Shown piece after piece: positions 43,769-54,231 of a stretch of DNA of 64,000 nucleotides. Location of the stretch: the NCBI RefSeq assembly GCF_012027635.1, contig NZ_SNUS01000001.1:992001-1056000 (forward strand). The letters run 5' to 3'. The notes under the pieces were generated by a model. The model was not told the origin of the DNA, made no database searches, and saw nothing but the letters and a program-made list of their open reading frames with translations. Positions within the stretch are counted from its first letter, which is position 1; each line of letters opens with the position of its first letter. Origin of the DNA: Thermococcus sp. 21S9 (GTDB taxonomy: Archaea; Methanobacteriota_B; Thermococci; Thermococcales; Thermococcaceae). Both the position numbers and the translations under genes were made by a program.

Positions 43769-44443
43769 ATGGAGGTTACAATCCCTGAACTCCTTGAACT
43801 GGTGAGGCCCGGGGAGACCGTCGTCGTCGAGTACGAGACGTCGTACGTCCCCGAATTCGCCCTCAAGCTTCTCGCCGATTACACGAGGGAGAACAACGTT
43901 CCCTTCGTGATAGACGATAACTTTGATAGTCTCTATACCGTGCTCGTTCACTGTGATATGCTCGGTCTTAAGGTTGATATTGGTCACTCTCATGTCTTTA
44001 AGACCGGTGGCAGAAAGGAGGTCGGTGGTACAATCAGGCGCGTTGATTTCCATCCGGACCCAAGGGTTCTCCTCAGAAATTACGATACAGCGTTCTCCAA
44101 CTCTGTTGGAACACCTGAGAACCCGGCCATAAACTTAACCCTCGGTATCGAGAACCTTTTGTACTTCGTCCGCGACGTTCGTGATTTCTATCGCTTTCTG
44201 CTTGGAATCCAGCGCTACGTTGGCAACAAGAGGAGGAAGGCGTTTTATCTTATTCACACTGGTTTGATACGGAGCCTTCCTCCCTACGTTCACCCCGAGC
44301 TCAGGAGAATAGCCACGAGCGTTTGGGTCTTCCACAGCTATCCTACCGGCGTTAGGCTCTCAATACTCCGCAGTCCAGACCTCGACCTCGTCGGCAGGGA
44401 GTTCACCATAGACGTCGGGGGTGTTTTCCTTGGTGGGAGTTGA
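43769..44443 (+). CDS. DUF257 family protein
   Basis: 224-aa Thermococcales-specific DUF257 protein with a KaiC/RecA-like plan but no P-loop. It contains PGETVVVEYETSYVPEFALK at the position of Walker A, NVPFVIDDNFDSLYTVLVHC, RRVDFHPDPRVLLRNYD and LSILRSPDLDLVGREFTIDV. The ATG follows a purine-rich AAGGGGGTCACA. It overlaps the next paralogue by 20 or so bases. Function unknown. Confidence 0.8.
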   Translation: MEVTIPELLELVRPGETVVVEYETSYVPEFALKLLADYTRENNVPFVIDDNFDSLYTVLVHCDMLGLKVDIGHSHVFKTGGRKEVGGTIRRVDFHPDPRVLLRNYDTAFSNSVGTPENPAINLTLGIENLLYFVRDVRDFYRFLLGIQRYVGNKRRKAFYLIHTGLIRSLPPYVHPELRRIATSVWVFHSYPTGVRLSILRSPDLDLVGREFTIDVGGVFLGGS

Positions 44444-45128
44444 ACTTAAGGGTCTGGCATCAAGGGACGACGTAATTTCTATGTTCAACTCGCTTCGCTT
44501 CGGTGGTCTCACGCTCCTTGAGAACTACTCAACGATGGGCGTTGAGCTCACGATGTACGCCATCCTGAACTACGCCTACGAGAGGGGTCTCCCGGTTCTC
44601 GTGGAGGACATCTTTGACGCGTTCGCCGGCTACGTGAGGCATTTCGAAGTCATGGGCCTCACCCCGCCGATGGAGCACGTTGGCGTCCTGAAAATCGGTG
44701 GCGTTGACGAGGTCGGCCACGTGGTTGACAAGATTCAGTTCGAGGCGGACCCAACTCTCTATCTTCAGAAGAAGGAGAGGGCCATAGAGCGGGCAATGGG
44801 CGACGACAGATACGTTTACATCGTCACGGGCTTTGAGAGGCTCCTCGGCTTCCAGCGCGACGTCAAGGGGGTTTACGTCATCGTCAACCACCTTAGGGAG
44901 AACCTCGGGAACGACAGGAGGATGAGCTTCAACATAATAGAGGGCAACGTCATCAGGGGTTTCCCAACGAACCCGCTTCCTCTCCTTGAAGGCGTCGCCA
45001 CCTCTGTCATCGAGCTTCACGACCACGGAGATATGCTCCGGCTCAGGTTCAGGAAATCCGTCTTCACGTTCCTCGAGGGAAGGGATGAAGTGTTTTTACA
45101 GCCCGCCGACGTCGTGGGATGGTGGTAA
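44421..45128 (+). CDS. DUF257 family protein, second paralogue
   Basis: 235-aa paralogue of the preceding gene: GGLTLLENYSTMGVELTMYA, ERGLPVLVEDIFDAFAGYVR, DKIQFEADPTLYLQKKE and VIELHDHGDMLRLRFRKSVF match position by position. The P-loop is again missing. The GTG at 44421 gives the longest form, but TTG 44430 or GTG 44433 may be the real start because GGGGGTG lies at 44417-44423. The stop is a few bases from the end of the convergent redox gene. Confidence 0.75.
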   Translation: MFSLVGVELKGLASRDDVISMFNSLRFGGLTLLENYSTMGVELTMYAILNYAYERGLPVLVEDIFDAFAGYVRHFEVMGLTPPMEHVGVLKIGGVDEVGHVVDKIQFEADPTLYLQKKERAIERAMGDDRYVYIVTGFERLLGFQRDVKGVYVIVNHLRENLGNDRRMSFNIIEGNVIRGFPTNPLPLLEGVATSVIELHDHGDMLRLRFRKSVFTFLEGRDEVFLQPADVVGWW

Positions 45129-45132
45129 AAAA

Positions 45133-47982
45133 TCAGGAGAAAAGCCCCAGTGGGGAGTAGCCTTCCCTCACTTTTTCAACATTCAGCTCCATTCCGAGGG
45201 CGTTGGTGACCGTTCCGCTCTTCTCGGCCCACCTGCCCGCAGGAACAACGAGGGTCTCGCCGGACAGCTCAACGGGTTCGTTCGAAACGACCACGTAACG
45301 TTCTGCCTTCGGTATCCCAGCCACACCGGCCCTTATCAGCCCCTCAGCGTTCGCCCCCTTCCTGAGTATCAGCGTCGGGACGTTCAAGGCTTCGCCGTCC
45401 TCAGTTACGGCCAGCTCGTAGTTCTCCTCAACGATTTCCTTGCCCCTCAGCAGTATCTTGAGGAGCGGGAACTTCTCCGGGTCTGCCCTGAGCAGGACGC
45501 GCCTGGCTTTCCTGACGTCGTCGAGGGTCGCCGTTGAAGGACTTCCGCTCACGGTCGAGCCTATCGGAACACCCTTACGCTCGGCGAAGGCCTTGAGGGC
45601 TTCTATCTCCTCGTTGGTCAGGTTGGGCGTTAGGATAAGGGCGTAGTTTCCGCTCTTGATGAACTTCTTCGCTTCTTCCCCGCTTACGGGCTTTCCGTTG
45701 AGGAGCGGTCCGCTGAGGGTCTTCTCCCAGGGCCTCTCGAAGCGACAGACGTCGCATAGGTATCCGTTCCACGAGTCCCCGACGCTCGAAGCCCTCACGA
45801 GAAGCCCGGCGTAGACCTCAACCGCCATCTCGCAGGCGAGGGAACAGCCGTTGCAGACGGTTCTTACCTTCTCGGTCTTCCATGGGCCGGGCTTCGTGAG
45901 CGGTGGTTTCTCAACTATCGCGCCGACAGGACAGACGTCGGCCAGCTCTCCAAGGAACTTCCCCTCAACGTCGGCCATGGTGTCGCCGAGCGGTGGCCCA
46001 ACCCTCGTGTTGTAGCCCCTGAAGAGGTAGTCTATCACGCCCTCTCCGGCAATCTCGTGGGTGAAGCGGACGCAGAGGCCACAGAGGACGCACTTGTTGG
46101 GGTCGAGCGTAATCCTCGGGTGGCTTTCATCAATCTCAAAGCGCTTTTCGCCCCTTCCGAGTTCGGGCTTCACGCCGTACAGCGTCGCGTACTCCCTCAG
46201 CTTGCAGTCGAAAACCGCCAGACAGCCACAGCTCATGCACCGTGAAGCTTCGCTCCTTGCCTCACTTTCGCTCAGCGTATTCTCGACCTCTTCAAAGCCC
46301 TTCGCCCTCTCCTTCGGGTCGAGGAGCTTCGGCCTGACCCTCGGCCTCCTCGGCGTCTCGCGGTAGTCCTCCTCCGTAACGTCCCTCCAGTGGTTGTAGG
46401 GTCTAATGTCCAGAAGGAGTTCGTACAGCTCTCTATCCTCTGTCAGCTCCCTGATGTGCTTCTCGGGGTTTGCGAGGACTTCTCTGGCCTTTTCAAGCCT
46501 GCCCCTGAGGTAGAGGTCTATCATCACAGCGGCTCTCCTTCCGGTGGCTATGCTCTCTATTACCGTTGAGGGTCCGAGAACGAGGTCTCCGCCCGCGAAG
46601 ACGCCGGGAACGTTGGTCTGAAGTGTAATCTCGTCAACAACGGCTCTTCCGCGCCTCGCCTCTATCCCAAGGCTCTTCAGGAACTCCTCGTCGCAGTACT
46701 GGCCGATAGCCAGAATCACGTTGTCGGCCTTAACCCTGAACTCCGAGCCCTCGATGGGCACAGGTCTCCTCCTTCCGCTTGAATCCGGCTCGCCGAGGCG
46801 CATTTTGATTAGCTCCACCTCCTCGACCCTGCCATCGCCGATAATCCTCACCGGGTTGGCCAGGAAGAGGAACTCCACGCCTTCCTCGATTGCTTCTTCC
46901 ACTTCGCGCTCGTTGGCGGGCATCTCGGCCTTCGAACGGCGGTAGACGACGGTGACCTTCGCGCCGAGCCTTAGAGCAGTCCTCGCGACGTCCATCGCTG
47001 TGTTTCCACCGCCGACAACTATAACGCGCTCGCCGAGCTTGACCTTTTCGCCCGTGTTCACCTTCCTCAGGAACTCTATGCCGTGCATCACTCCCTCTAA
47101 ATCCTCTCCGGGAATCCCCATCTTCCTGCTCTTCCAGGCTCCGACGGCCAAGAAAACGGCGTCGTACTTCTCGCGCAGTTCCTCAAGGGAAACGTCCCTG
47201 CTGAGGGCGGTGTTGGTTCTCACCTCGATGCCCGTGTTTATCACGGTCGCTATGTCCTTGTCTAAGACGTCCCTCGGAAGCCTGTACTCCGGAATGCCGT
47301 AGCGGGTCATTCCGCCGAGTTCGGGCATCGCCTCGAAGATTGTAACCTCGTGGCCCTTCAGCCTCAGGTAGTAGGCGCACGCCAGTCCTGCAGGCCCTCC
47401 TCCGACGACGGCAACGCGCTTCCCGGTCGACGGCGGTATTTCGGGCATCCACGGACCGTTCTCCAGGTCGTAATCGGCAGCGAAGCGCTTCGCGAGCCTT
47501 ATGCCGACCGGCTCATCGACGAGGTTCCTCCGGCAGGCCTCCTCACAGAAGGCCGGGCAGACCCTTCCGAGAACGGCAGGCAGGATGTACTTCTCTTTCA
47601 TCAGCTTGACGGCCTCGTGGTACTTGCCCATCGCTATCAGCGCGAGGTAGCCCTGTATGTCCGCGTGAGCCGGACAGGCGTCCTGGCACGGACCGATGCA
47701 ATCACCGTAGTGGCTCGAAAGGAGAAGCTCGAGAGCTGTTTTGCGCATCTCGATGACCCTATCGCTCAGGGTCTCTATCCTCATCCCTTCCGTCGGTTTG
47801 AGGGTGCACGCGGTCGTTACTCCCCTCTCGGTCTCTACGAGGCAGAGCCTGCACGAGCCGTAGGGTTCAAGCTCTTCGGTATAGCAGAAGCCGGGAACGT
47901 GGCCAATCTCGCGCAGGAACTCTATGAGGGGCTTATCTGCAGGAGCGTCAACTTCCTTTCCGTCAACGATGAGCCTGACCAT
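45133..47982 (-). CDS. NuoG-NfnB-like fusion flavoprotein with multiple Fe-S clusters
   Basis: 949-aa cytoplasmic redox protein. In order: a [2Fe-2S] NuoG-like domain (C33, C44, C47, C59); a DPYD/GltD-type 4Fe-4S region (C95, C99, C104, then C142, C146, C150); an NfnB-like flavoprotein with FAD motif VAVVGGGPAGLACAYYLRLK (190-209) and NAD(P) motif VIVVGGGNTAMDVA (320-333); further Fe-S ligands (C582-C593, C631-C637, C684); and the N-terminal [4Fe-4S] domain of molybdopterin oxidoreductases (C710, C713, C717, C743). No catalytic Mo domain follows, only about 200 residues of remnant. It probably links NAD(P)H, ferredoxin and a partner. Last gene of a NuoE-NuoF-fusion operon. Confidence 0.82.
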   Translation of the reverse strand: MVRLIVDGKEVDAPADKPLIEFLREIGHVPGFCYTEELEPYGSCRLCLVETERGVTTACTLKPTEGMRIETLSDRVIEMRKTALELLLSSHYGDCIGPCQDACPAHADIQGYLALIAMGKYHEAVKLMKEKYILPAVLGRVCPAFCEEACRRNLVDEPVGIRLAKRFAADYDLENGPWMPEIPPSTGKRVAVVGGGPAGLACAYYLRLKGHEVTIFEAMPELGGMTRYGIPEYRLPRDVLDKDIATVINTGIEVRTNTALSRDVSLEELREKYDAVFLAVGAWKSRKMGIPGEDLEGVMHGIEFLRKVNTGEKVKLGERVIVVGGGNTAMDVARTALRLGAKVTVVYRRSKAEMPANEREVEEAIEEGVEFLFLANPVRIIGDGRVEEVELIKMRLGEPDSSGRRRPVPIEGSEFRVKADNVILAIGQYCDEEFLKSLGIEARRGRAVVDEITLQTNVPGVFAGGDLVLGPSTVIESIATGRRAAVMIDLYLRGRLEKAREVLANPEKHIRELTEDRELYELLLDIRPYNHWRDVTEEDYRETPRRPRVRPKLLDPKERAKGFEEVENTLSESEARSEASRCMSCGCLAVFDCKLREYATLYGVKPELGRGEKRFEIDESHPRITLDPNKCVLCGLCVRFTHEIAGEGVIDYLFRGYNTRVGPPLGDTMADVEGKFLGELADVCPVGAIVEKPPLTKPGPWKTEKVRTVCNGCSLACEMAVEVYAGLLVRASSVGDSWNGYLCDVCRFERPWEKTLSGPLLNGKPVSGEEAKKFIKSGNYALILTPNLTNEEIEALKAFAERKGVPIGSTVSGSPSTATLDDVRKARRVLLRADPEKFPLLKILLRGKEIVEENYELAVTEDGEALNVPTLILRKGANAEGLIRAGVAGIPKAERYVVVSNEPVELSGETLVVPAGRWAEKSGTVTNALGMELNVEKVREGYSPLGLFS

Positions 47983-47983
47983 C

Positions 47984-49783
47984 TCACTCACCCCCGGTAA
48001 CGATTTCTATAGCGTTGAACCGGCATACCTCGTAGCAGGTTCCGCACTTGATGCAGGCAGATTGGTCAATCTCGTGGGGCTTGAGCTTCTCGCCGGTTAT
48101 CGCGTTGGCCGGGCAGAAGATTGCGCAGGCGGTACAGCCGGTGCACTTCTCTGGGATTATGACGTACCTTATGAGGGGCTTGCAGACCTTGGCCGGGCAC
48201 TTCCCCTCGATATGGGCGAGGTATTCATCCCTGAAGTAGCGGAGCGTCGTTAGGACGGGGTTCGGGGCGGTCTGTCCGAGACCGCAGAGTGAACCGGCCT
48301 TGACCTGGTGGGCGAGCTTCTCGAGCCTCTCAAGGTCCTCCTTCGTGGCCTTTCCCTCGGTGAACCGCTCGAGGATTTCGAACATCCTCTTCGTCCCGAC
48401 CCTGCAGAATGTGCACTTACCGCAGGACTCCTTGACCGTGAAGTCGAGGAAGAACTTGGCGACGTCCACCATACAGGTGTCCTCGTCCATGACGACCATT
48501 CCACCGCTACCCATTATCGCACCGGTCGCGTTCACGCTTTCATAATCCACCGGCGTGTCGAAGAGGTACTCCGGAATGCAACCGCCAGAAGGCCCGCCGA
48601 GCTGGACTGCTTTAATCCTCTTCCCTGTCTTCGTTCCACCGCCTATCTCGTAGAGTATCTCCCTCAGCGTCGTTCCCATCGGCACCTCGACGTTTCCGCC
48701 GTGCTTTATCTTGCCCGACAGCGCGAAGACTTTCGTTCCTTTGCTCTTCTCGGTTCCGAGCGAGGCAAAGGCCTTCCAGCCGTGCCTTATTATCCACGGC
48801 ACGTTCGCCCACGTTTCGACGTTGTTTATGTTGGTCGGCTTTCCGAAGAGGCCCTTCTGGGCCGGATACGGTGGCCTCGGCCTCGGCATCCCGCGTTTGC
48901 CTTCAATTGAAGCTATCAAAGCGGTTTCCTCACCGCAGACGAACGCTCCAGCGCCCTCCTTAATCTCGATGTCGAAAGAGAAACCGCTTCCGAGGATGTT
49001 TTCCCCCAGAAAGCCCCTCTCCTTAGCCTGCTTCAGCGCTATCCTCAGCCTCCTTATGGCGAGCGGGTACTCGGCACGGACGTAGATGAAGCCCTTCGTC
49101 GCTCCAATCGCGTAGGCCCCTATTATCATGCCCTCTATAACGCGGTGGGGGTCGCCCTCAAGGACGTTCCTGTCCATGAAGGCTCCTGGGTCGCCCTCGT
49201 CGGCGTTGCAGATGATGTACTTCTCGTCGCCCTCCGCTTCCCTCGTGAACTTCCACTTCAGGCCGGTCGGGAAGCCCGCACCGCCCCTCCCGCGAAGCCC
49301 GGATTTCATAATGATATCTATGATTTCCTCCGGCTCCATCCTGAGGGCCTTTTTGAGGGCTTCATAACCACCGACTGCGATGTACTCGTCTATGTTCTCG
49401 GGGTCTATGTAGCCGGAATTTTCAAGGACTATCTTCACCTGCTTGGCAAAGTAGCCGTCAACGTCCCACGTCTTCCTCTCGCCGTTCTCCCACCAGTCGC
49501 GCTTGACTATCCACTCCTTGACCGGCTTCCCGTTTACCACGTGCTCCTCTATAATCCTCGGAACCTTCTTCGGGTCGACGTGGCCGTAGGTGATAATCTC
49601 GTCCTCGGTGATTATGTCAACGAGGGGCTCGCGGTAGCACATGCCAACGCAACCGACTATCTTGAGCTTCACGTCAAGGTTTCTCCTCTCAAGCTCGGCC
49701 TTTATTGCCTCGTAGGTTTCCCTCGCGCCTGCGGCAATCCCGCAGGAGTTCATGCCGACCGCTATGGCCTTTATCTCAGACAT
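47984..49783 (-). CDS. NuoF/HydB-like NADH-binding flavoprotein
   Basis: 599-aa protein like the HydB subunit of electron-bifurcating hydrogenases. The N-terminal thioredoxin-like domain keeps three candidate cluster cysteines (C14, C45, C49). The FMN/NADH site is SGLRGRGGAGFPTGLKWKFT, then CNADEGDPGAFMDRN and EGAGAFVCGEETAL. The NuoF 4Fe-4S cluster is ESCGKCTFCRVGT with SLCGLG. Two C-terminal ferredoxin clusters follow (CTGCTACAIFCP, CIKCGTCYEVC). It carries the NADH and FMN chemistry of the complex. It overlaps the NuoE gene by eight bases. Confidence 0.9.
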   Translation of the reverse strand: MSEIKAIAVGMNSCGIAAGARETYEAIKAELERRNLDVKLKIVGCVGMCYREPLVDIITEDEIITYGHVDPKKVPRIIEEHVVNGKPVKEWIVKRDWWENGERKTWDVDGYFAKQVKIVLENSGYIDPENIDEYIAVGGYEALKKALRMEPEEIIDIIMKSGLRGRGGAGFPTGLKWKFTREAEGDEKYIICNADEGDPGAFMDRNVLEGDPHRVIEGMIIGAYAIGATKGFIYVRAEYPLAIRRLRIALKQAKERGFLGENILGSGFSFDIEIKEGAGAFVCGEETALIASIEGKRGMPRPRPPYPAQKGLFGKPTNINNVETWANVPWIIRHGWKAFASLGTEKSKGTKVFALSGKIKHGGNVEVPMGTTLREILYEIGGGTKTGKRIKAVQLGGPSGGCIPEYLFDTPVDYESVNATGAIMGSGGMVVMDEDTCMVDVAKFFLDFTVKESCGKCTFCRVGTKRMFEILERFTEGKATKEDLERLEKLAHQVKAGSLCGLGQTAPNPVLTTLRYFRDEYLAHIEGKCPAKVCKPLIRYVIIPEKCTGCTACAIFCPANAITGEKLKPHEIDQSACIKCGTCYEVCRFNAIEIVTGGE

Positions 49784-50240
49784 CGAGCTTCCCCTCCCTG
49801 AGTTTCCTTATGAGCTTCCTAACCCTGTCCGGCGTGAGCTTGCCGAACACCTTGTCGTTTATCATGACTACCGGTGCCAAACTGCAACAGCCGAGGCAGG
49901 CCACCCTTTCGAGGGTTATCAGCCCATCCTCCGTCGTCTGGCCCTCCTCTATGCCGAGCTCCTCCGTTATCGCCTGGGCAATGGTTACCGCTCCGTTCAC
50001 GTGGCAGGCCGTTCCGTGGCAGATTTTGACGACGTACTTTCCGAGGGGCTCGAACCTGAACTGGGCGTAGAATGTTGCGACGCCGTATACCCTGCTTAGG
50101 GGAATTCCGAGGTATTCCGCGATTCTCTCAAGGACTTCCCTTGGAAGGTAGCCGAAGCGCTCCTGAGTCCGCTGGAGAAGGGGGATTAGCGAGCTCGGCT
50201 CGGGGGGATACGAGGTCAGGTAATCGACTTCCGCCTCCAT
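49776..50240 (-). CDS. NuoE/HydC-like [2Fe-2S] protein
   Basis: 154-aa subunit of a NuoEF-type NADH-oxidising module. The helical N-terminus (LIPLLQRTQERFGYLPREVL) precedes a thioredoxin-like [2Fe-2S] domain with C74 and C79 in KICHGTACHVNGA and C115 and C119 in VACLGCCSLAP. VYGVATFYAQFRF is the family hallmark. The ATG at 50240 follows GGTGGTG. First gene of the operon, divergent from the sulfhydrogenase genes. Confidence 0.92.
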   Translation of the reverse strand: MEAEVDYLTSYPPEPSSLIPLLQRTQERFGYLPREVLERIAEYLGIPLSRVYGVATFYAQFRFEPLGKYVVKICHGTACHVNGAVTIAQAITEELGIEEGQTTEDGLITLERVACLGCCSLAPVVMINDKVFGKLTPDRVRKLIRKLREGKLDV

Positions 50241-50274
50241 GAGCACCACCACTTATGGGCGATAGTTGGTTTGC

Positions 50275-50288
50275 CGTGCTTATAAATG
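50275..50288 (-). promoter_or_regulatory. TATA box of the NuoE operon
   Basis: Read on the minus strand, ACATTTATAAGCAC is a good TATA box about 35-45 bases before the NuoE start codon, just downstream of the SurR-like site. Confidence 0.6.
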
Positions 50289-50303
50289 TGCATTGAAGCA
50301 CAA

Positions 50304-50326
50304 GTTTGTAACAAAAGGTTCCCAAC
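50304..50326. promoter_or_regulatory. SurR-type binding site, double palindrome
   Basis: GTT-TGT-AAC at 50304-50312 and GTT-CCC-AAC at 50318-50326, five bases apart, exactly fit the pattern GTTn3AACn5GTTn3AAC. The known motif of SurR, the Thermococcales sulfur-responsive regulator that activates hydrogenase genes when sulfur is absent, is GTTn3AAC, extended as GTTn3AACn5GTT. The site lies upstream of both divergent TATA boxes, the position expected for activation of each. Binding is inferred from the match. Confidence 0.8.
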
Positions 50327-50359
50327 CTCCGGTTTGAAAAATCCTTAAGGGAATCTTTA

Positions 50360-50373
50360 CAAACTTAAAATTA
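50360..50373 (+). promoter_or_regulatory. TATA box of the sulfhydrogenase operon
   Basis: ACTTAAAATTATA about 25-35 bases before the hydB start. The leader would be very short. Confidence 0.5.
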
Positions 50374-50397
50374 TAGCCCGATAGGGGCGTGGTCGAG

Positions 50398-51402
50398 TTG
50401 AGATATGTAAAGCTACCCTCCGGAAACTTTGAGGACTTCTTCAATTCCCTCAAGGGGATAGGCCAAATCTACGGGCCGGTTAAAGAGGGGAAGACCCACC
50501 ACTTCCGAAGGGTCGAGGAAGCCGGCGAAATGGACCTGAAATACACCAGAACGATGCTCCCGCCCAAGAAGTTCTTCGTCAGGCCGAGGGAGAGGCTTTT
50601 CAGCCTCGAGGACGGCTGGTGGCGGAAGGATGGGGACGGAAAGCCCTTCGTGCTCTTTGGAGTTCATTCCTGCGACGTTCACGCCCTCAAAATCCTCGAC
50701 AGAGTCTACCTCTCCGAGCCGGTTGACCCCTACTACGCAGAAAGAAGGAAGAGCGCTTTCATCGTCGGCATAAGCTGTCTCCCCGACGAGCTGTGCTTCT
50801 GCAAAAGCCTTGGAACGCACTTCGCGATGGACGGCTTCGACCTTTTCCTCCACGAGCTTCCCGATGGATGGCTCGTCAGGATAGGGAGTGTGAGGGGACA
50901 CGAGGTGGTCTGGGAGAACGCGAGGCTATTCGACGAGGTGAGCGACGAGGACATAGCCAACTTCAAGGCCTTCGAGGAAAAGCGTGCGGAAGCCTTCAAG
51001 AGGGAGCTCCGCTCGGAGGGTCTGGCAGACACGCTCGATTTGGCCTACAACAGCCCGGTCTGGAAGGAGTACGCCGAGAAGTGCCTCGCCTGCGGGAACT
51101 GCAACCTCGTCTGTCCGACGTGCCGTTGCTACGAGGTCTGCGACCGCTGGGTCGATGCCTACAGGGCCGTTCGCGAGAGGCGCTACGATTCCTGCTTCAT
51201 GGAGAGCCACGGCCTCGTCGCGGGCGGTCATAACTTCAGGCCCACACGCTTGGACCGCTTCAGGCACCGCTACTACTGCAAGAGCTACTTCGACCCTTCA
51301 GCGGGCTTCAACTGCGTCGGCTGTGGCCGGTGCGACGAGTTCTGTCCAGCTGGTATAGAGCACGTTAAGGTTCTCGACGAGATAAGGGGGTCGTTGGAAT
51401 GA
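50398..51402 (+). CDS. hydB: Sulfhydrogenase subunit beta (Fe-S protein)
   Basis: 334-aa Fe-S subunit of the cytoplasmic NADP-linked NiFe sulfhydrogenase. TIMPPKKFF-like (MLPPKKFFVRPRERLF), FGVHSCDVHALKILD and the two cluster motifs CLACGNCNLVCPTCRCYE and CVGCGRCDEFCP are clear. The TTG at 50398, giving the start MRYVKLP as in Pyrococcus, is preferred; a GTG at 50389 is the alternative. First gene of the four-gene hydBGDA operon; its end overlaps hydG (ATGA). Confidence 0.92.
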   Translation: MRYVKLPSGNFEDFFNSLKGIGQIYGPVKEGKTHHFRRVEEAGEMDLKYTRTMLPPKKFFVRPRERLFSLEDGWWRKDGDGKPFVLFGVHSCDVHALKILDRVYLSEPVDPYYAERRKSAFIVGISCLPDELCFCKSLGTHFAMDGFDLFLHELPDGWLVRIGSVRGHEVVWENARLFDEVSDEDIANFKAFEEKRAEAFKRELRSEGLADTLDLAYNSPVWKEYAEKCLACGNCNLVCPTCRCYEVCDRWVDAYRAVRERRYDSCFMESHGLVAGGHNFRPTRLDRFRHRYYCKSYFDPSAGFNCVGCGRCDEFCPAGIEHVKVLDEIRGSLE

Positions 51403-52265
51403 ATCCCTACGAGAGCCATCCGGCGAGAATCCTTGAGGTTAAGGACCTGACCCCGAGGGAGAAGCTCTTTACACTCCGCTTCCTCGACGAGGAGCTCAAC
51501 GAGGAGTTCACCTTCAGGCCGGGACAGTTCGTCATAGTGGACGTTCCCGGCTTCGGCGAGTTCCCGATAAGCCTCTGCTCGTCCCCGACGAGGAGTCCAA
51601 TCCAGCTCTGCATAAGAAAGGCCGGCAGGATGACGAAGTTCATACACGGAATGAAGGAAGGCTCGGTCGTTGGAATCCGCGGGCCGTACGGCAACGGCTT
51701 CCCGATGGAGGACATGGAGGGCTCGAACCTAATCCTCGTGGCCGGCGGTCTTGGAATGGCGCCCCTGCGCTCGGTTCTCTGGTACGCCCTCGACACCGGC
51801 AAGTACGAGCACGTCTGGCTCTTCTACGGCACGAAGGCCTACGAGGACATACTCTTCCGCGACGAGATTCTCCACCTCCTCAAGCACGGGAGTGCGATGA
51901 ACTGCACCGTCAAGCTCGCCTACGAAATCGAGAGCCCCTCGTGCATCTACCTTGAGCAGGGCTTCTCCGACAGGGTCTGCCGTGGAGTGGTTACCGACCT
52001 CTTCAGGGGCGAGAACTTCGACGTCGAGAACTCCTACGCCCTAATCTGCGGTCCGCCAATCATGTACCGCTTCGTCATAAGGGAGCTCCTCAACAGGAAG
52101 CTCTCGCCGGGGAGAATCTACATGACCCTCGAGAGGCGCATGCGCTGTGGAGTCGGCAAGTGCGGTCACTGCGTCGTCGGAACGAGCGTCTCGATGAAGT
52201 ACATCTGCCAGGACGGTCCGGTTTTCACATACTGGGACGCCCTCTCGACGAGGGGGTTGATATGA
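51399..52265 (+). CDS. hydG: Sulfhydrogenase subunit gamma (FAD/NAD(P)H reductase)
   Basis: 288-aa flavoprotein subunit that exchanges electrons with NADP(H). FRPGQFVIVDVPGFGEFPIS is the FAD-binding part; GLGMAPLRSVLWYAL and YALICGPPIMYRF are the nucleotide-binding part, and a C-terminal [2Fe-2S] cluster is RRMRCGVGKCGHCVVG with a later CQD. This is the dihydroorotate dehydrogenase electron-transfer-like fold. It overlaps hydB and hydD by four bases at each end. Confidence 0.94.
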   Translation: MNPYESHPARILEVKDLTPREKLFTLRFLDEELNEEFTFRPGQFVIVDVPGFGEFPISLCSSPTRSPIQLCIRKAGRMTKFIHGMKEGSVVGIRGPYGNGFPMEDMEGSNLILVAGGLGMAPLRSVLWYALDTGKYEHVWLFYGTKAYEDILFRDEILHLLKHGSAMNCTVKLAYEIESPSCIYLEQGFSDRVCRGVVTDLFRGENFDVENSYALICGPPIMYRFVIRELLNRKLSPGRIYMTLERRMRCGVGKCGHCVVGTSVSMKYICQDGPVFTYWDALSTRGLI

Positions 52266-52990
52266 TGAAGCTCGGCGTGTTTGAGCTTACCGACTGCGGT
52301 GGTTGTGCTCTCAACTTCCTGTTCCTCTACGAGAGGCTTTTCGACGTTCTTGAGTTCTACGAGATAGAGGAGTTCCACATGGCGACCAGTCTCGAGGGGA
52401 AGCACTTCGACGTCGGCCTCGTTACTGGAACGGTCTCAAGCCACCGCGACCTTGAGGTTCTTAGAGAGGCCAGAAACCGCTCCGACTACCTCATAGCCCT
52501 CGGAACCTGCGCCACCCACGGTTGCCTTCAGGCGAGCGTCGAGCTTCCGCTCAAGGAGAAGCTGAAGGCCGTTTATGGCGACGAGGGAAACCCGATGAGG
52601 GCACTCGACCCCAAGCCCGTCGTCGAGTACGTTACCGTTGACCTCGCCATACCCGGCTGTCCCTACGATAAAAACGAGCTCTTCCAGGCGCTTATTGACA
52701 TAGCGAAGGGCATCGAGCCTGTAAGACCTGACTACCCAGTCTGCCTCGAGTGCAAGCTGAACGAGTACGAGTGCGTTCTAGTCAAGAAGGGCCTTCCCTG
52801 CCTCGGCCCGATAACGCTCGGAGGCTGCAACGCTGCCTGCCCGCGCTCCGGACTCGGCTGTATCGGCTGCCGCGGGCCCCTGCCCGGTGAGGTGAACCCG
52901 GCTGGAGAGTTCGAAGTTCTCAAGGGCCTCGGCTACGACGAGGAGTACATCATGAGGAAGTTCAAGACCTTCGCGAGGTGGGGGCCATGA
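52262..52990 (+). CDS. hydD: Sulfhydrogenase subunit delta (NiFe small subunit)
   Basis: 242-aa small subunit carrying the electron-transfer Fe-S clusters nearest to the NiFe site. ELTDCGGCALNFLF holds the proximal-cluster C-x2-C. ALGTCATHGCLQA, VDLAIPGCPYD and CLECKLNEYECVL with CLGPITLGGCNAACPRSGLG hold the others. A frame starting at 52160 is a shadow; the ATG at 52262 overlaps the hydG stop. A second ATG follows directly and is possible. Overlaps hydA by four bases. Confidence 0.94.
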   Translation: MMKLGVFELTDCGGCALNFLFLYERLFDVLEFYEIEEFHMATSLEGKHFDVGLVTGTVSSHRDLEVLREARNRSDYLIALGTCATHGCLQASVELPLKEKLKAVYGDEGNPMRALDPKPVVEYVTVDLAIPGCPYDKNELFQALIDIAKGIEPVRPDYPVCLECKLNEYECVLVKKGLPCLGPITLGGCNAACPRSGLGCIGCRGPLPGEVNPAGEFEVLKGLGYDEEYIMRKFKTFARWGP

Positions 52991-54231
52991 TAATCGAGAC
53001 GAGGGAGTTCACCCGCGTCGAGGGGAACGGGAAGGCCGAGATAGTCATCGAGGAAAACGAGGTCAAGGACGTCAGGGTCAAAATCGTCGAGGGGCCGAGG
53101 TTCTTTGAGCTTCTCACCCTCGGAAGGGACTTCTGGGATGTTCCCGACCTTGAAGCGAGGATATGCGCCATCTGCTACCTCTCCCACAGCGTCGCTTCCG
53201 TTTTAGCTATAGAGCGGGCCCTCGGCGTCGAGGTTCCGGAGAAGACGGAGCTCCTCAGGGAACTCGGCCTCATAGGGGAGCTCATCGAGAGCCACTCTCT
53301 TCACCTATACCTTCTCGTCGCGCCAGACCTCTTCGGCTACCCCGACGCGATACGGCTCGCGACGAAGCACGGCGAGCTCGTTAAGGAGGGCATAGCGCTC
53401 AAGGCCTTCGGGAACAGGATTAGGGACCTCATCGGCGGGAGGGAAATCCACGGCATAAACGTTAAACCCGGTGGCTTCGGAAGGTGGCCGGGGTGGGAAG
53501 AGCTTGAGGCGATAGAGCGGGAGGCGAAGGCACTCCTCACGGTGGCGAAGCGCGCGGTGAGGCTCTTCTCGGGAATTGGAGAGTACGGCGGAAAAGCGGA
53601 GCTGTTCGTCGCCACCGACGGCTACCTCACCGGCGACTCGCTCATCTCGAACGTCGAGCGGAACTTCCATTACTTCGAGCGCATCGAGGAGCGCCCCCTC
53701 GTCTACAGCTTCGCGAAGCAGAGCCTCTACAGCGGAAAGCCCTTCCTCGTCGGCTCGCTGGCGAGGCTCCTGCTCAAGGCTGAATCGCTGACCCCCACAG
53801 CTAAGAGACTCTTCGAGGAGAACCGGGAGAGGCTCGAAGCCGGATGGGTGAGCTACAACAACCTCGCCCAGGCGATAGAGCTGGTTTACGCCCTCGAACG
53901 GGCGGGGGAAATAGCGAAAACCCTTCTAGACAAAGGCTTTGAGCCCGAGAACGTTCCGGTCGAGGCCGGGGACGGGGAGGGGATAGGTTATGTAGAGGCC
54001 CCGAGGGGAGTCCTCGTGCACCACTACAGAATAGCCGGCGGAAAAATCGAGTACTCCAACATAATAACGCCCACGGCCTTCAACCACGCCATGATGGAGG
54101 GCGCCCTCCTGTGGGAAGCGAGAAACCTCTACGGAAACGCGCCGGAGGATGAGCTCCTCAGAAGGCTTGAGGAAACCGTCCGGGCCTTCGACCCCTGCAT
54201 CTCCTGCTCGGTGCACTTCGTCAGGGGATAA
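52987..54231 (+). CDS. hydA: Sulfhydrogenase subunit alpha (NiFe large subunit)
   Basis: 414-aa catalytic subunit that binds nickel and iron and reversibly reduces protons or sulfur compounds. The N-terminal ligand motif is ARICAICYLSH (C60, C63) and the C-terminal motif is DPCISCSVH (C404, C407, H410). Only four residues (FVRG) remain after H410; this short tail is likely removed by a maturation protease. The ATG at 52987 follows GAGGTGGGGGCC. Completes the hydBGDA operon. Confidence 0.95.
   Translation: MIIETREFTRVEGNGKAEIVIEENEVKDVRVKIVEGPRFFELLTLGRDFWDVPDLEARICAICYLSHSVASVLAIERALGVEVPEKTELLRELGLIGELIESHSLHLYLLVAPDLFGYPDAIRLATKHGELVKEGIALKAFGNRIRDLIGGREIHGINVKPGGFGRWPGWEELEAIEREAKALLTVAKRAVRLFSGIGEYGGKAELFVATDGYLTGDSLISNVERNFHYFERIEERPLVYSFAKQSLYSGKPFLVGSLARLLLKAESLTPTAKRLFEENRERLEAGWVSYNNLAQAIELVYALERAGEIAKTLLDKGFEPENVPVEAGDGEGIGYVEAPRGVLVHHYRIAGGKIEYSNIITPTAFNHAMMEGALLWEARNLYGNAPEDELLRRLEETVRAFDPCISCSVHFVRG

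Follow-up and report, generated by a model that had tools for sequence, protein, structure and literature searches.

An nfnCBA operon of Thermococcus sp. 21S9 predicted to encode a known type of bifurcating transhydrogenase, and its probable exchange with NfnI beside a hydrogenase operon

The system closest to the locus described here is NfnABC (Nfn-Bfu) of T. sibiricus (Tsib1517–1519; PDB 9n5u, 9n5v), which has the same gene set as Thermococcus sp. 21S9, the same truncated C-terminus and the same missing second Nqo3 cluster, and differs from it in sequence only, within the range found in Thermococcaceae (about 69–95% identity). The T. sibiricus complex, produced in P. furiosus and purified, transferred electrons from NADPH to ferredoxin only with NAD+, in a tightly coupled reaction; it is without the A4 cysteines, and the large subunit from Sporomusa is about 200 residues larger (PMC9304861). 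StnABC of Sporomusa ovata (PDB 8oh5, 8oh9) shares the NuoG domain with an inserted GltD domain and the HydBC-type bifurcating core, although StnC is about 220 residues longer than NfnA of 21S9 and has one extra [4Fe-4S] cluster. The Stn structure revealed a GltD/NuoG fusion, in which the FAD of StnC is non-bifurcating and a linear path leads to FMN, and a partial C-terminus was noted in the same work for T. litoralis NsoC and T. sibiricus NfnA (PMC10482914). NfnABC of Caldicellulosiruptor saccharolyticus (PDB 9bov, 9bp5) is alike in architecture and predicted mechanism, but its large subunit runs to 1178 aa, with an FDH-like remnant that is longer and Nqo3 clusters that are complete. T. litoralis NsoABC is alike in domain build and length (955 aa), and the substrate proposed for it at publication was a different one. 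NfnAB (NfnI) of P. furiosus (PDB 5jca) has in common with NfnABC the net reaction and a GltD-like subunit for NADP(H) and FAD, whereas it is made of two subunits, bifurcates at another site and is without NuoEFG parts.

The nfnCBA operon and the build of NfnA

In the window, that is, the whole 64,000-nucleotide stretch of DNA that was analysed, the genes nfnC, nfnB and nfnA (Table 1) can be predicted with high confidence to code for a soluble transhydrogenase of the electron-bifurcating kind, NfnABC (Nfn-Bfu). All three subunits were orthologous over their full length to chains A, B and C of 9n5u, which, like 9n5v, is listed in the Foldseek library under the title "Structure of the Thermococcus sibiricus NfnABC complex", and the match of NfnA to 9n5u_A reached 1618 bits across residues 1–945. 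As expected of a BfuB subunit, NfnB has FMN/NADH (51K), SLBB and NADH_4Fe-4S domains and two C-terminal [4Fe-4S] clusters (Pfam), while NfnC, as a thioredoxin-like [2Fe-2S] protein (PF01257), has the features of BfuC. The NfnL/GltD-kind NADP(H)/FAD domain fused in BfuA is that of a Type 1 Nfn-Bfu, and the short C-terminus lacking the A4 ligands is that of the archaeal complexes. An assignment to NfnAB (NfnI) failed for want of an NfnS beside nfnA. The operon consists of nfnCBA alone, with no membrane or connecting subunits, and has a hydrogenase operon as its neighbour, which does not fit Complex I; a Complex I fragment was also dropped as a reading on the orthology to 9n5u. From this orthology we infer the same activity in Thermococcus sp. 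21S9. The enzyme belongs to the already known Nfn-Bfu/NfnABC/Stn/Nso kind (PMC9304861, PMC10482914, PMC7483475), and both the truncation of its C-terminus and the lack of the second Nqo3 cluster have been published as well; the 21S9 operon adds one more Thermococcaceae genome with a known bifurcating transhydrogenase.

Table 1. Features of the nfnCBA operon and the divergent hydrogenase operon (positions in the window)
Feature	Position	Strand	Basis or remark
nfnA (BfuA)	45133–47982	−	949 aa; ortholog of PDB 9n5u_A
NfnA, NuoG-type [2Fe-2S] domain, residues 3–75 (952 numbering), Cys 36, 47, 50, 62	47767–47985	−	Pfam Fer2_4, Cys map
NfnA, inserted GltD/NfnB-like FAD/NADP(H) domain, residues 99–500	46492–47697	−	Pfam Fer4_20 and Pyr_redox_2, alignment to StnC
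NfnA, remainder of NuoG Fe-S part, residues 585–692	45916–46239	−	Fer4_Nqo3, 9bov_A/8oh5_C alignments, Cys map
NfnA, molybdopterin-oxidoreductase [4Fe-4S] entry domain and short remnant without pterin site, residues 709–952	45136–45867	−	phmmer to NuoG and FDH, Foldseek of model
nfnB (BfuB, NuoF-like), 599 aa	47984–49783	−	Pfam; 1240 bits to 9n5u_B
nfnC (BfuC, NuoE-like), 158 aa, [2Fe-2S]	49776–50252	−	PF01257; 278.6 bits to 9n5u_C
Triplet of overlapping SurR-type long sites, GTTn3AACn5GTT (50304+, 50318+, 50310−)	50304–50334		Motif scan
Cytosolic NiFe hydrogenase operon, divergent	50389–54231	+	Pfam; homologous operon in 57 loci
Hydrogenase beta	50389–51402	+	
Hydrogenase gamma	51399–52265	+	
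Hydrogenase delta	to 52990	+	
Hydrogenase alpha	52978–54231	+	

The plus strand of the nfnA region is full of stops and the coding strand is the minus strand; the coordinates and the length of 949 residues given in the first-pass annotation were correct. A GTG at 47991 offers an alternative start (45133–47991, 952 aa), but the ATG at 47982 is the likely one because its position is present in all aligned relatives. The cysteines of the entry motif are accordingly numbered 710/713/717/743 in the 949 aa form and 713/716/720/746 in the 952 aa form. The fusion architecture was conserved in 41 of the 94 Thermococcaceae genomes, hence it is neither a product of chance nor an assembly artefact. Two further readings of nfnA, as a pseudogene or frameshift product and as a novel fusion, were dropped on the orthology to 9n5u.

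Pfam matches in NfnA were Fer2_4 (3–75), the start of NADH-G_4Fe-4S_3 (83–98), Fer4_20 (101–178), Pyr_redox_2 (192–483) and Fer4_Nqo3 (625–692), so a predicted GltD/NfnL-like flavoprotein is inserted within a NuoG-like chain. The inserted domain has two [4Fe-4S] sites (Cys 98, 102, 106, 145, 149 and 153, with Lys168; StnC alignment and residue map), the individual cysteines being allotted to their putative clusters by homology. The NuoG Fe-S part contains Cys 585, 588, 590 and 596 as well as a single [4Fe-4S] cluster (Cys 634, 637, 640 and 687), while for the second Nqo3 cluster (A4) the ligands are absent: motif 1 of Nqo3 has Thr in place of its fourth Cys, and motif 2 has lost its first three Cys and kept the last (9bov_A/8oh5_C alignments, Cys map). 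Cys 713, 716, 720 and 746 (952 numbering) form the entry motif of molybdopterin oxidoreductases. The combination of a NuoG-like start, a GltD/NfnB unit and ferredoxin-type Cys motifs, proposed earlier from the open reading frame, was thus borne out by Pfam and by the alignments to 9n5u and StnC, and C710, C713, C717 and C743 (949-aa numbering), which had been assigned to the entry domain, are present in the Cys map.

Predicted electron path and alternative activities

By homology to the solved complex, FAD would be bound in NfnA and FMN in its NuoF-like partner, in agreement with the two flavin/nucleotide sites suggested in the first-pass annotation. Hydride would be exchanged between NADP(H) and FAD in the GltD-like domain of NfnA, and the Fe-S clusters of this subunit would carry single electrons to the FMN/Fe-S site of NfnB, where they would be split between NAD+ and ferredoxin, with the C-terminal [4Fe-4S] clusters of NfnB as the predicted point of ferredoxin reduction. 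In vivo, the reaction probably runs in the reverse direction, from NADH and reduced ferredoxin to NADPH.

It is very improbable that the main role of the complex is that of a sulfur/oxygen oxidoreductase dependent on NADPH, which the name of T. litoralis NsoABC would imply. NsoABC was reportedly first described with this activity by Toth in 2008; NsoC shares the domain build, Stn is a close relative of Nso, and the SurR-type promoter sites suggest sulfur-responsive regulation. However, the reduction of sulfur or O2 is a common side reaction of flavoproteins with reduced Fe-S clusters, which weakens the case for it as the main activity. The T. sibiricus ortholog, moreover, bifurcates, and Kremp et al. 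argue that Nso itself may actually be a transhydrogenase. A slightly smaller chance is left for an NfnAB-like mechanism, with bifurcation at the FAD that the GltD-like domain binds. This domain shares about 45% identity with NfnL, and the Arg/Lys close to the flavin are retained (Lys168 aligns with StnC K170, and Arg237 with StnC Arg239), but the complex is without an NfnS partner; in StnC the equivalent Arg lies about 6 Å from N5, and the FAD there is non-bifurcating.

Within the reading as an NfnABC that bifurcates at the FMN/Fe-S site of NfnB, which we regard as almost certain as a whole, the molybdopterin-oxidoreductase remnant at the end of NfnA would be a structural leftover taking no part in pterin catalysis. 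Pfam gave no match for residues 700–949 and none to molybdopterin families, but the C-terminus aligned by sequence with NuoG/Nqo3 and formate dehydrogenases to about residue 765. The model predicted for the C-terminal 260 residues had a mean pLDDT of 66 (about 83 in the core, 66–228, and <50 in the first 65 residues), and Foldseek with this model retrieved T. sibiricus NfnA first, followed by Nqo3/NuoG, HydA of NiFe-Bfu, nitrate reductase, FDH and FwdB. The relation of residues 700–949 to the NuoG and molybdopterin families, on which the first reading depended, was therefore found both by sequence search and by Foldseek of a moderate-confidence model. Complete pterin-binding domains do not follow the [4Fe-4S] domain; the replacement of a full molybdopterin domain by a short remnant, noticed earlier, is upheld by homology, with about 240 residues beyond the entry motif. 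A working molybdo- or tungsto-pterin site, for example that of a small formate dehydrogenase, can practically be dismissed: the Cys of the entry domain are correctly spaced, and FDH and nitrate reductase were matched distantly by structure, but active enzymes have several hundred residues after the motif, and even the longer Stn counterpart has been described as catalytically inactive and without formate activity. A functional formate dehydrogenase remnant was likewise dropped on the orthology to 9n5u.

The hydrogenase-linked slot and its two partners

The hydrogenase operon adjoining nfnCBA is one that we take to be SHII, from the adjacency of NfnI in relatives and from general knowledge of P. 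furiosus. The motif triplet listed in Table 1 lies in the intergenic region (50253–50388) between nfnC and the hydrogenase beta gene and comprises the sole instances of the motif in the window. The consensus GTTn3AACn5GTT is that of the long SurR site (PMC8595942). At least one motif was present within 160 bp upstream of the hydrogenase beta gene in 54 of the 57 loci, with either partner in the slot, while the background frequency was 1.1% of 160-bp pieces, the sites themselves included. Judged by the motif, the divergent promoter region carries putative SurR-like sites common to both operons, and shared ancestry explains part of their conservation.

The 94 Thermococcaceae genomes were searched with NfnI-L of a relative, whose best PDB match was 5jca (P. 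furiosus NfnI), and with the hydrogenase beta subunit of the window. Among the 57 hydrogenase loci fetched, 36 had nfnCBA and 21 an NfnI-kind nfnSL adjoining divergently, and none had both (contig ends truncate the loci G093, G079 and G012, and NfnL of G029 is partial). When nfnB was searched in the 21 NfnI genomes it was found in none, and NfnABC and NfnI co-occurred in 0 of the 94 genomes. The mutual exclusivity of NfnAB and Nfn-Bfu in Thermococcaceae has been reported (PMC9304861), and the adjacency of NfnI and SHII is visible in the gene numbers of T. piezophilus (PMC8595942). For an exchange of NfnABC and NfnI in the same slot, no report was found in a literature search limited to open-licence papers.

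The flanking genes were common to the nfnCBA and NfnI states of the slot. DNA was compared between closely related loci that differ in the transhydrogenase block. L075 and L082 gave flanks of 94.8% and 90% identity around blocks of 2.4 kb versus 5.2 kb, and different blocks also lay between the flanks in the pairs L062/L052 (95.4% and 94.2% identical) and L076/L083 (89.6% and 85.7%). On the hydrogenase tree of 54 loci at least eight partner changes were counted, six of them forced by starred branches (bootstrap, 7–8), a number that refers to the hydrogenase tree rather than the species tree and does not distinguish gain from loss. One origin of the NfnI state was rejected on the same tree. These results make it probable that the hydrogenase-linked slot with its SurR-type promoter is an exchange site, in which NfnABC and NfnI replaced each other repeatedly (at least six to eight switches) with the flanks left intact and no genome keeping both. 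The two complexes share one domain only and bifurcate at different sites. If upheld, the alternation represents a natural experiment, in which close relatives have a different bifurcating transhydrogenase beside the same hydrogenase, and the physiological costs and benefits of two bifurcation mechanisms would be directly comparable.

Distribution and neighbouring genes

A match to nfnB was found in 44 of the 94 Thermococcaceae genomes, a few of the matches being partial or distant, and an alignment-based search of genome contigs yielded 10 loci. Short-form homologs occurred in MAGs that were deposited under the labels DHVE2, Thermoplasmata, Thermodesulfobacteriota and WOR-3, and the second Nqo3 cluster was also missing in the relatives L102–L110 wherever the motifs were resolved. 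In two archaeal MAG contigs (L103, L104) nfnCBA adjoins an NfnSL-like pair. Three genomes (L099, L100 and L101) have nfnCBA without an adjacent hydrogenase, and L101 retains a fragment of the hydrogenase alpha gene. One near-complete genome (G069:C2:79296-80060) gave an NfnA match for residues 699–952 only and has no nfnB, thus this segment is possibly a remnant. The 21S9 genome itself contains two further NfnSL-like pairs (C1:980938-982206 and C1:378752-380023; L002, L003), both of which resemble 5vj7 (Xfn/NfnII) more closely than NfnI. Next to nfnA, an adjacent pair of related, functionally unassigned ORFs occupies positions 43769–45128 of the window, and many loci have relatives of these ORFs close to the hydrogenase operon.
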